Positions 37,859 to 56,884 of a stretch of DNA of 60,241 nucleotides are shown in pieces. Made by a program: the position numbers and the translations under genes. Source of the stretch: Candidatus Poribacteria bacterium. Lineage in GTDB: Bacteria > Poribacteria > WGA-4E > WGA-3G. The notes below the pieces were generated by a model that worked only from the letters and a program-made list of their open reading frames with translations, did no database searches and was not told the DNA's origin. Where the stretch lies: NCBI GenBank assembly GCA_026702755.1, contig JAPPBX010000107.1:1-60241 (forward strand). Direction: 5' to 3'. The stretch's first letter is position 1; the number at the start of each line of letters is the position of its first letter.

Positions 37859-39148
37859 ATGACGGAATTTCCTAACCAAGAAGGACTCAATAGAGCGTTT
37901 AACATATATCGAGCTGCCATGCGAAAGTTCATCATTTCGCGCTTAAGACAGATTCCAGGCACAAACGTTGAATCTGTAGTTACTAATTCTTTGGGATATA
38001 GACGAGCTAACGAAGTTAAACGTGTTTTGACTCACTCCGATCGAAATATTGAATCTGCAATTGACATTAACGATTTTCCACACCTTGTTCACAAAAACTG
38101 GAGCGAAGCCTTTGAAATACAACTCAATGACGACAAAACTTTTCGGAATCAACTTTGGCTGATAGTGGAATGTCGGAATGCCGATTGGGCGCACCCACCT
38201 GAAGGGGATGCTGAATCCGAAGGTACTCGAGCACACTTGTTTCTTATTGCTGATGTACTTAGTAAAATTAATGAATCAGATGCGAAACGTGTTAAAGAAA
38301 TTCGAGAGCAGCTTTTTTCTGATGAAGCTGAAGAACACATCCCAGATGTGTCTGAACAACTGGAAATAGCGAGAGCAGAGAATGCTGAATTTGAGAAACC
38401 GCTCAAGGGTAAATCAGAAATTCAAGAACGACGAAAAAAATTCTGGAAGAACTTGTGCGACTATGCAGCTCAAAAGGACACTCCAGTTAGATTTCATAAA
38501 CCGGGTTCGGAAAATTACTTAAACGTTAGCAGAAATTTGATAGATCTTACTGGCTTTAAGATGCAGGTGTGGTTGGGCACGGACAATAGGGAAATTGCCG
38601 TACGCCTTTACATGTCACATCAAAACTTCTACTTGCTTGGGAAACAACGCGAGGAAATTGATAAAGAATTTGGCGAACCTCTTGAATGGGAGGAGTTACC
38701 TCAGCGCAAGGAAAGTCGGGTGTCCTTGCATAAGGATATAACTAATCCAATTGACGAAGCAGATTGGCAAAATCAGCACAAATGGATTGTCTCAAAAATT
38801 GAAAAGTTCCGCGAAAAGTTCAACGCGGTTTTCTTACCACGACTTCAGGAACCTATAAAAGTAGCCGTAGCAGGAAAAACCGTCGCTGAGGAACGCTTAT
38901 CAGATATATCAAATCGGTTTGAAGAAGCCGAAGGGCAACAACCCATCCAAAGTACACTGCCATCCAATTTGACTCCAGATGAGAAAATAGTCTTCGACGT
39001 TATAGAAGCTCCATCATCGCATATTGACACTATCATTCGGGCGACACAGCTACCGATTAGTCGGGTCTCAAGTCTGCTACTGATGTTGGAACTCAAGGGC
39101 ATCGTTCAACAATTACCGGGGAAACAATTCGCTAAGGCTAATCAATAA
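37859..39148 (+). CDS. HEPN (Swt1-type) - DUF4268 - DprA-type winged-helix protein, probable defence factor
   Basis: 429 residues in three parts. Residues ~8-150 look like a Swt1-type HEPN domain (FNIYRAAMRKFIISRLRQIP). Its catalytic R-x(4-6)-H motif is intact as R106-N-A-D-W-A-H112, with the typical polar residue after Arg. Residues ~195-330 match DUF4268 (FWKNLCDYAAQ, IAVRLYMSH, FGEPLEWEELPQRKESRV), a domain common in nuclease and restriction contexts. Residues ~368-425 match the winged helix at the end of DprA (LTPDEKIVFDVIEAPSSHID, LLMLELKGIVQQLPGKQF). HEPN domains are usually RNases in immunity or toxin systems. It stands alone between repeat elements with its own promoter, and looks more AT-rich than its neighbours (not computed). 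Confidence 0.82.
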   Translation: MTEFPNQEGLNRAFNIYRAAMRKFIISRLRQIPGTNVESVVTNSLGYRRANEVKRVLTHSDRNIESAIDINDFPHLVHKNWSEAFEIQLNDDKTFRNQLWLIVECRNADWAHPPEGDAESEGTRAHLFLIADVLSKINESDAKRVKEIREQLFSDEAEEHIPDVSEQLEIARAENAEFEKPLKGKSEIQERRKKFWKNLCDYAAQKDTPVRFHKPGSENYLNVSRNLIDLTGFKMQVWLGTDNREIAVRLYMSHQNFYLLGKQREEIDKEFGEPLEWEELPQRKESRVSLHKDITNPIDEADWQNQHKWIVSKIEKFREKFNAVFLPRLQEPIKVAVAGKTVAEERLSDISNRFEEAEGQQPIQSTLPSNLTPDEKIVFDVIEAPSSHIDTIIRATQLPISRVSSLLLMLELKGIVQQLPGKQFAKANQ

Positions 39149-39275: not shown

Positions 39276-39619
39276 TGTATAAAAAGGTGGCAACCATAAG
39301 TGTCAATTTTAGAGCAAATAACCGTTGTGGTCCCAGGTCCGGTAGGTGCTGTTTTCAACTGCGCCGGATTTCACCCACAACCCTTGAATACTTCAGAACC
39401 CTCTTTAGTCCCGTAGGGACGGTATCTGTGTAGAAAAACGGTCGCGCCCCCGATCAAGCCCCGTAGGGGCGGCATTTGCAAAGATGTCGTCCCAAAATAC
39501 CGTGAAAAACCCCTAAATTGACACCTATGGTGCGGTCTCCTAACCGAACCTACCGGGTCTGGGGCCGCGGCGGCTATTTTTTCTAAAATTGACACTTATG
39601 GTTGCCACCTTTTTATACA
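39276..39619. repeat. 344-bp MITE-like element with 38-bp perfect terminal inverted repeats
   Basis: The arms 39276-39313 and 39582-39619 are exact reverse complements over 38 bp. The interior has no gene. It contains GTCCCGTAGGGAC and GCCCCGTAGGGGC palindromes and the block ending ATTGACACCTAT, all shared with the element at 16066-16344. It also holds two units of a CCGAACCTACCGG-type repeat in opposite orientations (near 39333 and 39543). Perfect arms suggest recent arrival or constraint. Confidence 0.85.
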
Positions 39620-40016
39620 CCATAGGTGTCAATTTAGGGGTTTTGATAACGTTTTAGCAAGTGTAGATATAAACATGCTGAAGAAACACCCAAGCAAAAA
39701 CCCCTTACAGGGCTGAATACTTCTTTGAAACGCATTTCTATAAAAATAATGAAGAAACACCCAAGCAAATAAACCTTACAGGACTAAAGAGGTTTTTGAA
39801 GTCTTTAAGGTTTTCGCATAGTATCCGGTTCGGTTAGGAAACCGAACCTACCGGGCCTGGAGAAAATCAGGAATTACCGAAATATTTTCTTAAACTTCAT
39901 CAAACCGAACCTACCGGACCTGGGTCTGAGACGGTTATGTTTTCTAAAATTGACGCTTATAGTGTGTAGTAACTATAGATATAGAAGATATAGATTATAA
40001 AGGTTCTCTACATACA
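39620..40016. repeat. Repeat island before the BolA-like genes
   Basis: No gene. It holds two more GAACCTACCGG(G/A)CCTGG units (about 39840 and 39904) and two direct copies of AAGAAACACCCAAGCAAA (39681-39698 and 39752-39769). Each of the latter is followed by a CCTTACAGG block. The same 16-nt core appears in the leader of the ABC permease at 47.2 kb. Confidence 0.65.
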
Positions 40017-40028
40017 TTGGAAGCAATA

Positions 40029-40292
40029 ATGGCATGTGAAATATTAAAGCAGAAAATTCATGATACGCTCAGGGGTGGATACTTTAGCGATGCAAAAGAT
40101 TTTGTGGATGTTTCTGATGGTTCCGCAGATCATGTCCATATTGTCATTGTTAGCCGAAAATTCAATGGACACACCATGGGAGACAGAAGTGATATCATTT
40201 GGGGTGAATTGGTAAAGAATCTTTCTCAAGAGGAATGGGGACATGTATTCCTTTCTATTGGCGTGCCGCCTGAAGAGGTCATTCTCCAATAA
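40029..40292 (+). CDS. BolA-like protein, tandem copy 1
   Basis: 87 residues from the ATG at 40029 (GGAAG site); a TTG four codons earlier is less likely. The pattern fits the BolA fold: an N-terminal helix LKQKIHDTL, DVSDGSADHVHIVIVSRKFNG (strand pair and H-x-H near residues 36-38), the recognition helix DRSDIIWGELVKNL and the final strand FLSIGVPPEEV. BolA proteins bind monothiol glutaredoxins or DNA. The usual invariant His of BolA (RHR motif) is replaced by DRSD. It is first of three tandem paralogs. Confidence 0.7.
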   Translation: MACEILKQKIHDTLRGGYFSDAKDFVDVSDGSADHVHIVIVSRKFNGHTMGDRSDIIWGELVKNLSQEEWGHVFLSIGVPPEEVILQ

Positions 40293-40308
40293 TTGAGGTA
40301 GAGGTATA

Positions 40309-40569
40309 ATGCGTGAAGTGTTAAAGCAGAAAATTCACTCTTTGCTTAAAACAGGCTACTTCAGCGATACGAAAGATTTCGTTGATGTTTCTGATGGAGC
40401 CGCCGATTTCATCCACGTTGTGGTTGTCAGTCGAAAATTTAATGGATACACGATGATGGACAGAGGTGATATTATCTGGGATGAACTCTTAAAACATCTT
40501 TCAGATGAGGAATGGGGACACGTTTCTTTATTGATTGGTGCAACACCTGAAGAGGTCCAACTCTGGTAA
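40309..40569 (+). CDS. BolA-like protein, tandem copy 2
   Basis: 86 residues. It is about two-thirds identical to copy 1 by eye, with the same helix LKQKIHSLLKTGYFSDTKDF, the strand VVVVSRKFNGYTM and MDRGDIIWDELLKHL. GAGGT-rich ribosome site; 16 nt after copy 1. The terminal L-W differs from copy 1 only at the last residues. It is probably co-translated with both neighbours. Confidence 0.72.
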   Translation: MREVLKQKIHSLLKTGYFSDTKDFVDVSDGAADFIHVVVVSRKFNGYTMMDRGDIIWDELLKHLSDEEWGHVSLLIGATPEEVQLW

Positions 40570-40583
40570 GTAGAGGCTAACAG

Positions 40584-40856
40584 ATGGCATCCGAAACACT
40601 AAAACAAAAAATTCACGATATTCTCAAAGCAGGCTCTTTCCCCGATCCAGACTACTTCGTTGATGTTTTCGACGATGACGACGAACACATCCGCATCCTT
40701 GTCATCAGCCGTAAGTTCGACATCTACAAATATAAACGCTCAGAACGCGAGGACAGGGTCTGGGCAGATATTGTCCAGGTGTTATCCGAGGACGAACTGG
40801 AGTATATTTCTCGTATCGTCGCTGTAAACCCAGAGGAAATTAAGATATATACCTGA
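40584..40856 (+). CDS. BolA-like protein, tandem copy 3 (divergent)
   Basis: 90 residues. It keeps LKQKIHDILKAG, DDDEHIRILVISRKFD and EDRVWADIVQVLSEDELEYIS, with the final NPEEIKIY. It lacks the glycine after FD (FDIYKYKRSEREDR in place of FNGYTMMDRGD) and carries an extra charged loop, so it is the most divergent of the three. AGAGG ribosome site, 14 nt after copy 2. Confidence 0.7.
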   Translation: MASETLKQKIHDILKAGSFPDPDYFVDVFDDDDEHIRILVISRKFDIYKYKRSEREDRVWADIVQVLSEDELEYISRIVAVNPEEIKIYT

Positions 40857-40916: not shown

Positions 40917-41252
40917 ATGTTCATAAAGACAGTCAAAGCCAGCCCTCGATTTCTCGGAATTCTGTTTGTTAGGATTTTGGCGGGAGTGGTAGTGGGGCAC
41001 TTGTGGGTTGTCGCTGTGGCACTTATTTTTCATCACACAGGTGAGAACATAGTATCTCAACACGCTGAAATAGGTCCCCATCGCGGTCTTTATGACTATT
41101 TTGATTCAAGATACGACATAGGTCCTATTTTTCGTATTGTCGCTTGGGTCGCATGTATAGGAAACTTGGGGTGTATGTTTCTTGGTATTCTCTGGGGTTT
41201 TTCTCAAGGGAAATTGGATTTGCGGAGGTGGATAAGGAAGCGGTATGCTTAA
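40917..41252 (+). CDS. Small two-helix membrane protein
   Basis: 111 residues from the ATG at 40917 (GGAGGTGAG upstream). Hydrophobic segments lie near 12-35 (FVRILAGVVVGHLWVVAVAL) and 75-100 (FRIVAWVACIGNLGCMFLG), with a polar loop between and a basic tail. I do not recognise the family. It is 60 nt after the third BolA-like gene and 28 nt before the rhodanese gene, so it may share their transcript. Confidence 0.65.
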   Translation: MFIKTVKASPRFLGILFVRILAGVVVGHLWVVAVALIFHHTGENIVSQHAEIGPHRGLYDYFDSRYDIGPIFRIVAWVACIGNLGCMFLGILWGFSQGKLDLRRWIRKRYA

Positions 41253-41280: not shown

Positions 41281-41670
41281 ATGAATCATATTGAATTTTA
41301 TCAAGCGAAATTAAACCACGAAACGGATTCTTGGGATCTTTATGAAGCACTCAATAACGGGGAACCTATCGTTGTTATAGATGCCCGTTCCGCAGAGGCT
41401 TATGCGCTTGAACACATACCAACATCAATAAATATCCCGCATCGAACAATGTCTGAGGTAACCACAAGCGAACTCGACAAATCAAAATTATATGTGACAT
41501 ACTGTGATGGTATTGGCTGTAATGCTTCTACAAAAGGTGCCTTGAATATGGCGAAGTTGGGGTTTCAGGTGAAAGAGTTGATGGGTGGCTTAGATTGGTG
41601 GAAACGTGATGGCTATGAAACCAAAGGTAAACAAGGCGTTCCGGGGACTGAGGTTGTGTGTGGATGCTAA
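41281..41670 (+). CDS. Single-domain rhodanese-like protein
   Basis: 129 residues. The rhodanese fold shows VVIDARSAEAYALEHIPTSI and the active-site cysteine C75 in YCDGIGCNAST (an elongated loop, C-x4-C). It should transfer sulfane sulfur, with C80 as a possible resolving cysteine. GAAAGGAAG precedes the ATG. It is last in the string of BolA-like, membrane and rhodanese genes, all with possible sulfur/redox links. Confidence 0.88.
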   Translation: MNHIEFYQAKLNHETDSWDLYEALNNGEPIVVIDARSAEAYALEHIPTSINIPHRTMSEVTTSELDKSKLYVTYCDGIGCNASTKGALNMAKLGFQVKELMGGLDWWKRDGYETKGKQGVPGTEVVCGC

Positions 41671-47188: not shown

Positions 47189-47250
47189 GGGCGAGGATAC
47201 CAGCAGAAACACCCAAGCAAAACTCCCTCGCCAGCGACGGTGAGGCTTTT
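47189..47250 (+). promoter_or_regulatory. Attenuator-like leader with alternative stems
   Basis: GGCGAGG (47190-47196) can pair exactly with CCTCGCC (47226-47232). The same CCTCGCC can instead pair with GGTGAGG (47239-47245, one G-U), which is followed by CTTTTGTT. The first loop carries the repeated AGAAACACCCAAGCAAA motif. This is the layout of a conditional terminator; no known riboswitch class is recognised. Elsewhere in 46981-47356 I see nothing. Confidence 0.45.
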
Positions 47251-55120: not shown

Positions 55121-56884
55121 ATGCAACAGACACTGAATACGGCTTCACTCGTCGAGGTGATGCGACAGGCATCTCTCATTTCGGAACAGGACTATACGGA
55201 CATCATCGCAGAAATAGAACAAACCGGAGCGTCAGAGGCAGCTGTGCTTTCTAAACACGGCGTATCATCTGATGTTCTCGCGCTCGCTACAAAGAGCGTT
55301 GAATACGGAACACCCTTCATCCAATTAGAGGATGTTGCGCCTGAACCTGACGTACTTGAAAAGGTTTCACCGGGGTTCGCATACCGAAATAAAATCGTAC
55401 CTATTGCGTTGACAGACGATCAACTGACCATCGCAATGGTAGATGTTCAGGATGTCATTCTCATTGACGAGATTGAACTCATCACAGGCTACCAAATTAC
55501 GCCTGTCCTTGCAGATGAGGGAAATATTGATGAGGCAATCGTTCGTCTCTATGGACGCACTGCTGAGAGTTTGCTCAGTGCTGGTATCAAGGGACCCGTC
55601 GGCGCAACTGCCACGCTTGAACGCGAGACGATTGAAGACTTCGGAATTGATGAGAAGGATCTCAGCCAAGATCCGACGGTTATACACGCCGTTGACCAGA
55701 TGATTATTGACGCCGTCCGGATGGGAGCAAGTGATATTCACATTGAACCCTATCCGACCCAATTGAAAATCCGGTTCCGCGTTGATGGTGTATTAGAAGA
55801 CCAACCGCAACCCCCTGCCTATCTCCAATCCGCAATCACTTCCCGAATCAAAATCATGGCGGGGATGGATGTCGCAGAACGGCGCCGTCCGCAAGATGGC
55901 AAAATCAGTAGGCAGATTGCCAGCGTCGGCAATCGGCAAATAGACCTCCGTGTTTCCACTGTACCGACGGTCGCAACGCTCCATGGCGAAAGCGTTGTGC
56001 TCCGTATCCTCGACCGACAGTCTATTGAATTTGGACTCACAGAACTCGGATTAACCGAGGACAACCTCCAACTCTTTGAACGCATGATTCGTAAACCGCA
56101 CGGTATCATCCTTGCAACCGGACCTACCGGTAGTGGGAAGACCACGTCGCTTTACGCCTGTTTGAAAGAGATTAACTCGCCGGATGTCAAAATCATCACG
56201 CTCGAGGATCCAGTGGAGTATGAATTAGAGGGCATCAACCAGATCCAGGTCAATTCAGATATAGGCTTTACCTTCGCTCAGGGACTCCGCCATATCCTGC
56301 GGCAGGACCCAGATAAGGTATTGGTCGGTGAGATTCGTGACTACGAGACCGCGGAGATGGCAATTCATACCTCACTTACGGGACACCTTGTCTTTAGCAC
56401 ACTTCACACAAACGATGCTCCCGGCGCAATCACGCGACTTATTGATATGAACGTTGAACCCTATCTCGTTGCCTCCACGGTAGAGGGTGTCATCGCCCAA
56501 AGACTTGCTCGCCGTGTCTGCAGGGCGTGTTGTGAGATGCATTCCCCTGACATGCACGAACTGGAGGGACTTATGGGTAATGGCAACAGCACCGCCATCC
56601 CTTACGATCTGAAAATTCCGCGCGCAGTCGGATGTAAGGAGTGCCGTGGGAGAGGTTACAAAGGTAGAATCGGTATCTTTGAAGTTTTGTTCATGACTGA
56701 TGAGATTCGCTCTGTGGCACTCAAGCAGGCATCGACGAGTGAGATTCGTCGTCTCGCTGTCCAGATGGGCATGAAAGGTTTACGTGAAGATGGTTGGCGT
56801 AAGGTCGCTGCAGGATTGACAACGGTTGACGAGGTCGTCCGGTTAACACAGGAAGACGAATTCGATTTCGTGGAAGTTGTATAA
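55121..56884 (+). CDS. Type II secretion / type IV pilus assembly ATPase (GspE/PilB)
   Basis: 587 residues. The N-terminal GspE-N-like domain (~1-150) is followed by the ATPase core: Walker A GPTGSGKTT (near 334-342), Asp box LEDPVEYELEGINQIQVN, Walker B VLVGEIRD, His box TGHLVFSTLHTND, and a four-cysteine zinc knuckle (CRACC, CKECRGRGYKGR). It powers assembly of a pseudopilus or pilus. The ribosome site is weak. It heads a run E, two paralogs, F, G. Confidence 0.93.
   Translation: MQQTLNTASLVEVMRQASLISEQDYTDIIAEIEQTGASEAAVLSKHGVSSDVLALATKSVEYGTPFIQLEDVAPEPDVLEKVSPGFAYRNKIVPIALTDDQLTIAMVDVQDVILIDEIELITGYQITPVLADEGNIDEAIVRLYGRTAESLLSAGIKGPVGATATLERETIEDFGIDEKDLSQDPTVIHAVDQMIIDAVRMGASDIHIEPYPTQLKIRFRVDGVLEDQPQPPAYLQSAITSRIKIMAGMDVAERRRPQDGKISRQIASVGNRQIDLRVSTVPTVATLHGESVVLRILDRQSIEFGLTELGLTEDNLQLFERMIRKPHGIILATGPTGSGKTTSLYACLKEINSPDVKIITLEDPVEYELEGINQIQVNSDIGFTFAQGLRHILRQDPDKVLVGEIRDYETAEMAIHTSLTGHLVFSTLHTNDAPGAITRLIDMNVEPYLVASTVEGVIAQRLARRVCRACCEMHSPDMHELEGLMGNGNSTAIPYDLKIPRAVGCKECRGRGYKGRIGIFEVLFMTDEIRSVALKQASTSEIRRLAVQMGMKGLREDGWRKVAAGLTTVDEVVRLTQEDEFDFVEVV

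Follow-up and report, generated by a model that had tools for sequence, protein, structure and literature searches.

The window, as we call the whole stretch of DNA analysed here (60,241 nucleotides from a Candidatus Poribacteria bacterium), carries on its forward strand three co-directional open reading frames encoding small BolA-like proteins. Copy A (40029..40292) encodes 87 aa from its ATG, the mechanically derived frame beginning at a TTG four codons upstream, and is followed after 16 nt by copy B (40309..40569, 86 aa) and, after a further 14 nt, by the divergent copy C (40584..40856, 90 aa). A and B are 71% identical, as against 41% for A and C, and all three proteins are acidic (8, 9 and 13 Lys plus Arg vs 14, 15 and 21 Asp plus Glu residues in A, B and C, respectively). 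The original prediction of three tandem paralogs of 86-90 residues, separated by 14-16 nt and with a divergent third member, is thus borne out by coordinates and identities. It is also borne out by a protein tree of 90 columns, of which, with 33 of 67 inner branches open, only one split is used here, the one that sets the C-type sequences apart as their own clade from the A, B and S types (SH-aLRT 99-100). In the host genome, which measures 5.84 Mb and carries the array on contig C107, a search with B recovers A (1.8e-37), C (2.1e-16) and a fourth copy on contig C31 (2.3e-29). This solo paralog, S (L083:6797-7060, reverse strand), stands alone on its contig and is syntenic in ten genomes, with an enolase-like gene on one side and a gene for a 661-aa membrane-type protein on the other.

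Outside the array, a gene for a small hydrophobic, probably membrane protein (40917..41252, forward strand, starting at an ATG 9 nt inside a GTG frame) separates it from a single-domain rhodanese gene (41281..41670, forward strand; Pfam Rhodanese, 1.1e-15). The product of the small gene has no Pfam or NCBIfam match, and in the corresponding slot of relatives it is present, absent or doubled, and often only 36-40% identical. Throughout most of the genus, the array is found between the gene for a conserved 772-aa protein and the rhodanese, tRNA-Asn and PhyH genes. Two array-less loci, L116 and L117, have the rhodanese about 20 nt behind the 772-aa gene, so that the array occupies a variable slot between both. 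None of the genes flanking the array was recognised as an Fe-S gene. The region upstream of it (39500-39960) holds a cluster of short dispersed repeats, with three exact copies of CCGAACCTACCGG (a fourth, with one mismatch, at 56118; 0.06 expected) and two exact copies of GAAGAAACACCCAAGCAAA (a third, with one mismatch, at 47203). Further upstream, a gene at 37859-39148 encodes a 429-aa protein combining a sub-threshold Swt1-like HEPN match, DUF4268 and a DprA-type winged helix; its slot holds pieces or diverged versions in relatives, and the gene is possibly defence-related.

In single-sequence searches, the relationship of these proteins to BolA stays under the cut-offs. Against the Pfam BolA family (PF01722, gathering score 25.7 bits), A and B score 15.9 bits (E 0.017) and 14.2 bits (E 0.057), C has no match, and no protein of the host genome exceeds the cut-off; 18 of 33 family members match at E up to 1, the best at 0.0018. 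The NCBIfam BolA model finds A at 5.9e-5, also under its own cut-off. A profile of the 33 members is more informative: of the 15 PDB sequences that it matches at E up to 1, 12 are BolA-type, including the top 11, with E. coli BolA (2dhm) at 1.4e-5 and the best non-BolA match at 0.27 (matches were called BolA-type by molecule name, and PFE0790c and the SufE1 domain by entry title). Alignment of the family with E. coli BolA plus IbaG by hhalign gives a probability of 87 and an E value of 4e-6, and a profile of six S sequences reaches four BolA-type chains in the PDB at 0.0012-0.0075. With the matches of the S and whole-family profiles, the sequence link to BolA is clear for S and for the family as a whole. 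A profile of C-type sequences gives no significant BolA match in the PDB, where 2dhm appears at E=1 and is outranked by a glycosyltransferase (0.037). Judged by its sequence, S is the most BolA-like paralog, and it retains, with His54 in 10 of 10, the Arg-His pair seen in the helix of E. coli BolA.

Predicted structures point the same way. The AlphaFold2 (AF2) model of A (pLDDT 93.0, pTM 0.83) returns BolA-type chains in the top 13 rows of a Foldseek search, with a best E of 1.6e-3, and aligns with AtBolA1 by VIA-align over 78 residues (Z 10.2, rmsd 2.4). The model of C (pLDDT 87.8, pTM 0.77) returns BolA chains in the top nine rows and aligns over 78 residues of AtBolA1 as well (Z 9.3, rmsd 2.5). 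BolA chains also head the VIA-align results for both models, but no Foldseek row for either model falls below an E of 0.001. Both models have the alpha-beta-beta-alpha-beta topology (class II KH-like) of BolA, and no mismatch with that fold was seen; together with the 33-member profile, these searches uphold the BolA-like assignment originally made from the letters of the sequence. C is linked to BolA through its paralogs and its predicted fold. A close known parallel is Sinorhizobium meliloti YrbA (5nfk, 5nfm), which aligns with 72-73 residues of A at a VIA Z of 9.1 and whose two-His site falls at probably equivalent places in A; it differs in sharing only 19-21% identity and in coming from a host that has a monothiol glutaredoxin partner, according to the available text of PMC7538681.

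The original prediction held that the invariant histidine of BolA is out of place. BolA proteins ligate metals or clusters with a His or Cys in a loop and with an invariant His where strand 3 starts, as described in the available portions of PMC7538681 and PMC6558291, and the motif given in that of PMC10051749 is SxxF(x18)E(x5)H. None of the 72 family members contains this motif, but 41 contain SxxF(x26)H (A 13/13, B 11/12, S 10/10, C 0/25, other 7/12), in which the spacing from Phe to His is 26 residues, two above the 24 of BolA. Position 72 is His in 13/13 A, 11/12 B and 10/10 S sequences and in 4/25 of the C type, where the equivalent position is Arg in 17/25 and Tyr in the window's C. Position 35, in the loop between strands 1 and 2, is His in 13/13 A and 23/25 C sequences, Phe in 12/12 B and Leu in 10/10 S sequences, with no His in the last two types; A, B and 'other' sequences were sorted by this residue, so that its counts hold by construction for A and B and independently for C and S. 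These counts were made without six fragments or odd-length rows and skip loci L018, L075 and L085 (duplicates) and L039 (a distant partial match). In VIA alignments of A extended from their ends by gap-free extrapolation, residue 72 is where the invariant His lies for four of the six BolA proteins with published His numbers (SmYrbA, AtBolA1, BOLA3 and Fra2), and residue 71 for the other two (AtBolA2 and BOLA1); for C, five of six place it on residue 74, the Tyr of the window. MAFFT instead sets Gly71 of A opposite the invariant His, so that the register of the strand-3 His is uncertain by one residue; being extrapolated from alignment ends and not from superposition, it is the weakest structural point of the analysis. 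The histidine described as missing is therefore probably present in A and B as His72, within this one-residue doubt, and the description holds for C, with its Tyr or, in most relatives, Arg. A is the only type with both candidate ligand histidines, His35 and His72; B retains the equivalent of His72, and the window's C retains the loop His.

These comparisons define the family as a divergent BolA-like branch, with the BolA fold, scores below Pfam's cut-off and an unusual motif spacing. It shares with the BolA / IbaG (YrbA) family the predicted fold, the SxxF motif, the Arg of the next helix, a candidate loop His (in A and C) and a probable strand-3 His (in A, B and S). It departs from that family in its PEE[VI] terminus, where BolA commonly has a TPEEW-like end, in the absence of a strand-3 His from C, and in the arrangement of its genes as a tandem pair or triplet.

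The family is present in 30 of 84 genomes of the phylum and 26 of 38 of the genus, 24 of which carry an array; it is absent from 12 genus genomes, including the single-contig G021 and G028. Named loci were paired with genomes by coordinates and sequences. All 23 named loci from the family search come from Poribacteria MAGs. A wider profile search of 386 genomes added six more, labelled only as belonging to the same domain, whose matches resemble ordinary BolA, all six having IHA[LI] at the position of the invariant His. Within this survey, the divergent family is confined to Poribacteria. A search for similar arrays, which the original prediction had proposed as a check, yielded 25 intact examples, 20 of two copies and 5, the window's among them, of three; the last gene is of the C type in all of them, and 29 of the 30 intergenic gaps measure 13-16 nt, the remaining one 52 nt. 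Tandem expansion is thus supported among relatives, but what they conserve is a pair of closely spaced and probably co-translated genes, in which a His72-bearing A/B-type gene precedes a C-type gene, with an optional extra copy. Among the papers listed by literature searches on BolA with Poribacteria, rhodanese, paralogs or tandem duplication, there was no report of tandem bacterial BolA arrays and no title or abstract on BolA in Poribacteria.

Purifying selection on all intact copies is strong (median dN/dS 0.091 for A, 0.082 for B, 0.074 for C and 0.047 for S). A and B of the window, both intact, are separated by a dS of 1.34, so that the triplet did not arise recently; the duplication behind A and B is old, and genomes retain one, the other or both. 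The recurrence of the array in 24 of 38 genus genomes, together with the low dN/dS of its copies, shows that the arrangement is not a product of chance, and A, B and C are genuine, selected, divergent BolA-like genes. The array is nevertheless fluid among relatives: L047 carries a B fragment upstream of it, L052 an in-frame A/C fusion, L061 a broken third copy, L049 an A gene whose front part is B-like and the array-less L119 a C remnant. Such remnants and chimeras are what redundant duplicates drifting toward decay would leave, but the purifying selection on each intact copy (median dN/dS 0.07-0.09) and the survival of both A and B over so long a divergence make that explanation hardly credible. 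Of the identity of the array as a divergent BolA-fold family, and of its evolution as described, we are highly confident.

The best explanation, to which we give close to an even chance, is that this divergent BolA-fold pair array acts as a set of metal or Fe-S accessory proteins. The iron-handling role itself, as we infer it, is tentative and falls somewhat short of even. His35 and His72 would serve the A type as ligands for a metal ion or cluster, by analogy with S. meliloti YrbA, in which metal is bound through two conserved histidines, as stated in the available text of PMC7538681. C, for which that metal site would be dispensable, would serve as a structural or regulatory partner, and the most plausible cellular contact would be the SUF machinery, whose gene cluster in the host includes a gene for a CGWS-type glutaredoxin-like protein. 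Several observations count against this role: the C-only profile fails to reach BolA on its own, Fe-S genes are lacking among the recognised neighbours of the array, and an A-type gene is absent from 13 of the 25 intact arrays, so that in these no single array protein has both histidines at the expected places.

In the usual description, BolA proteins partner monothiol glutaredoxins that depend on glutathione, and a second possibility is that the array proteins are classical [2Fe-2S] chaperones working with such a glutaredoxin and glutathione. A has both BolA_H-type ligand positions, and the host genome has a sufC-sufB-sufD cluster, with sufS and sufU nearby, in which a glutaredoxin-like gene with the single-Cys motif CGWS adjoins sufD (L105:6457-6798, reverse strand). 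This is the only glutaredoxin-like gene recognised in the cluster, and its product scores 20 bits against TIGR00365 (cut-off 117) and is closer to YruB, itself matched below the cut-off; it is not a canonical monothiol glutaredoxin, and a literature search for CGWS with monothiol glutaredoxins found no paper. The gene occurs in 67 of 82 relatives, with or without an array, and in 37 of the 38 genus genomes; as 12 of these 38 lack the family, the array is not an obligate partner of the CGWS protein, which also weighs against the metal or Fe-S role. For glutamate-cysteine ligase, there is no match to GCS2 (PF04107) in the host genome and none to PF04262 in 37 genus genomes. PF02955 is matched in the host above its cut-off but partially (1.4e-15, positions 13-154 of 175), a full strong match being found in 14 of 37 genus genomes; a link between glutathione synthesis and the array was rejected, strong PF02955 matches occurring in 11/24 array and 3/13 array-less genomes (p=0.29). 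With no glutamate-cysteine ligase found, the host may not make its own glutathione, judging from its gene content, and may rely on uptake, another type of ligase or another thiol, which the CGWS protein may likewise use; a classical glutathione-dependent complex is accordingly doubtful. B, C and S, moreover, each lack one of the ligands. We consider this alternative decidedly unlikely. A variant in which function is split over an obligate pair, the A/B-type protein giving the strand-3 His and the C type the loop His, with their heteromer building a metal or [2Fe-2S] site that needs no glutathione and docks with the CGWS protein of the SUF cluster, is less probable again.

The main rival to the metal or Fe-S reading, unlikely but to be taken seriously, is that these are apo-BolA-like regulators that bind DNA or RNA through their class II KH-like fold, the paralogs differing by now in their targets. 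The fold-search matches include chains of the KH-type ribosomal protein S3 and a mitoribosomal protein, Ser42, Phe45 and Arg53 never vary among 33 members and Arg43-Lys44 hardly do, and C is conserved despite having no strand-3 His; the S3 chains nevertheless rank lower than most BolA chains, and the acidity of all three proteins fits poorly with binding nucleic acid. The original prediction read the nearby rhodanese as a hint of sulfur handling, and a BolA-rhodanese operon has a precedent in Pseudomonas fluorescens, where the available text of PMC10051749 places bolA in an operon with sulphurtransferase and disulphide isomerase homologues. The two cases share a bolA-type gene adjoining a rhodanese-type gene, and in six loci (L045, L047, L053, L056, L059 and L068) the rhodanese begins 8-22 nt past C; that text has one bolA and mentions no array, whereas the rhodanese here is inconsistently linked. 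Across the 38 genus genomes, 16 of the 24 with an array and 6 of the 14 without one have a rhodanese (Fisher p=0.19). The gene is missing from six array loci that extend to PhyH (L043, L044, L046, L049, L051 and L055), has no relative in the available flanks of L057, L058, L060, L061 and L062, and in L116 and L117 follows the 772-aa gene with no array at all. With presence of rhodanese and array independent of each other, the rhodanese is a neighbour and not a demonstrated partner; neither co-occurrence nor synteny supports the partnership, which was rejected, and a sulfur-handling operon is very improbable.

For the family, proteins that lie under Pfam's BolA threshold gain a probable fold and a probable function class. 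A selected pair with divided ligand residues, in genomes where no glutamate-cysteine ligase was found, would moreover offer a natural test of essential BolA chemistry.
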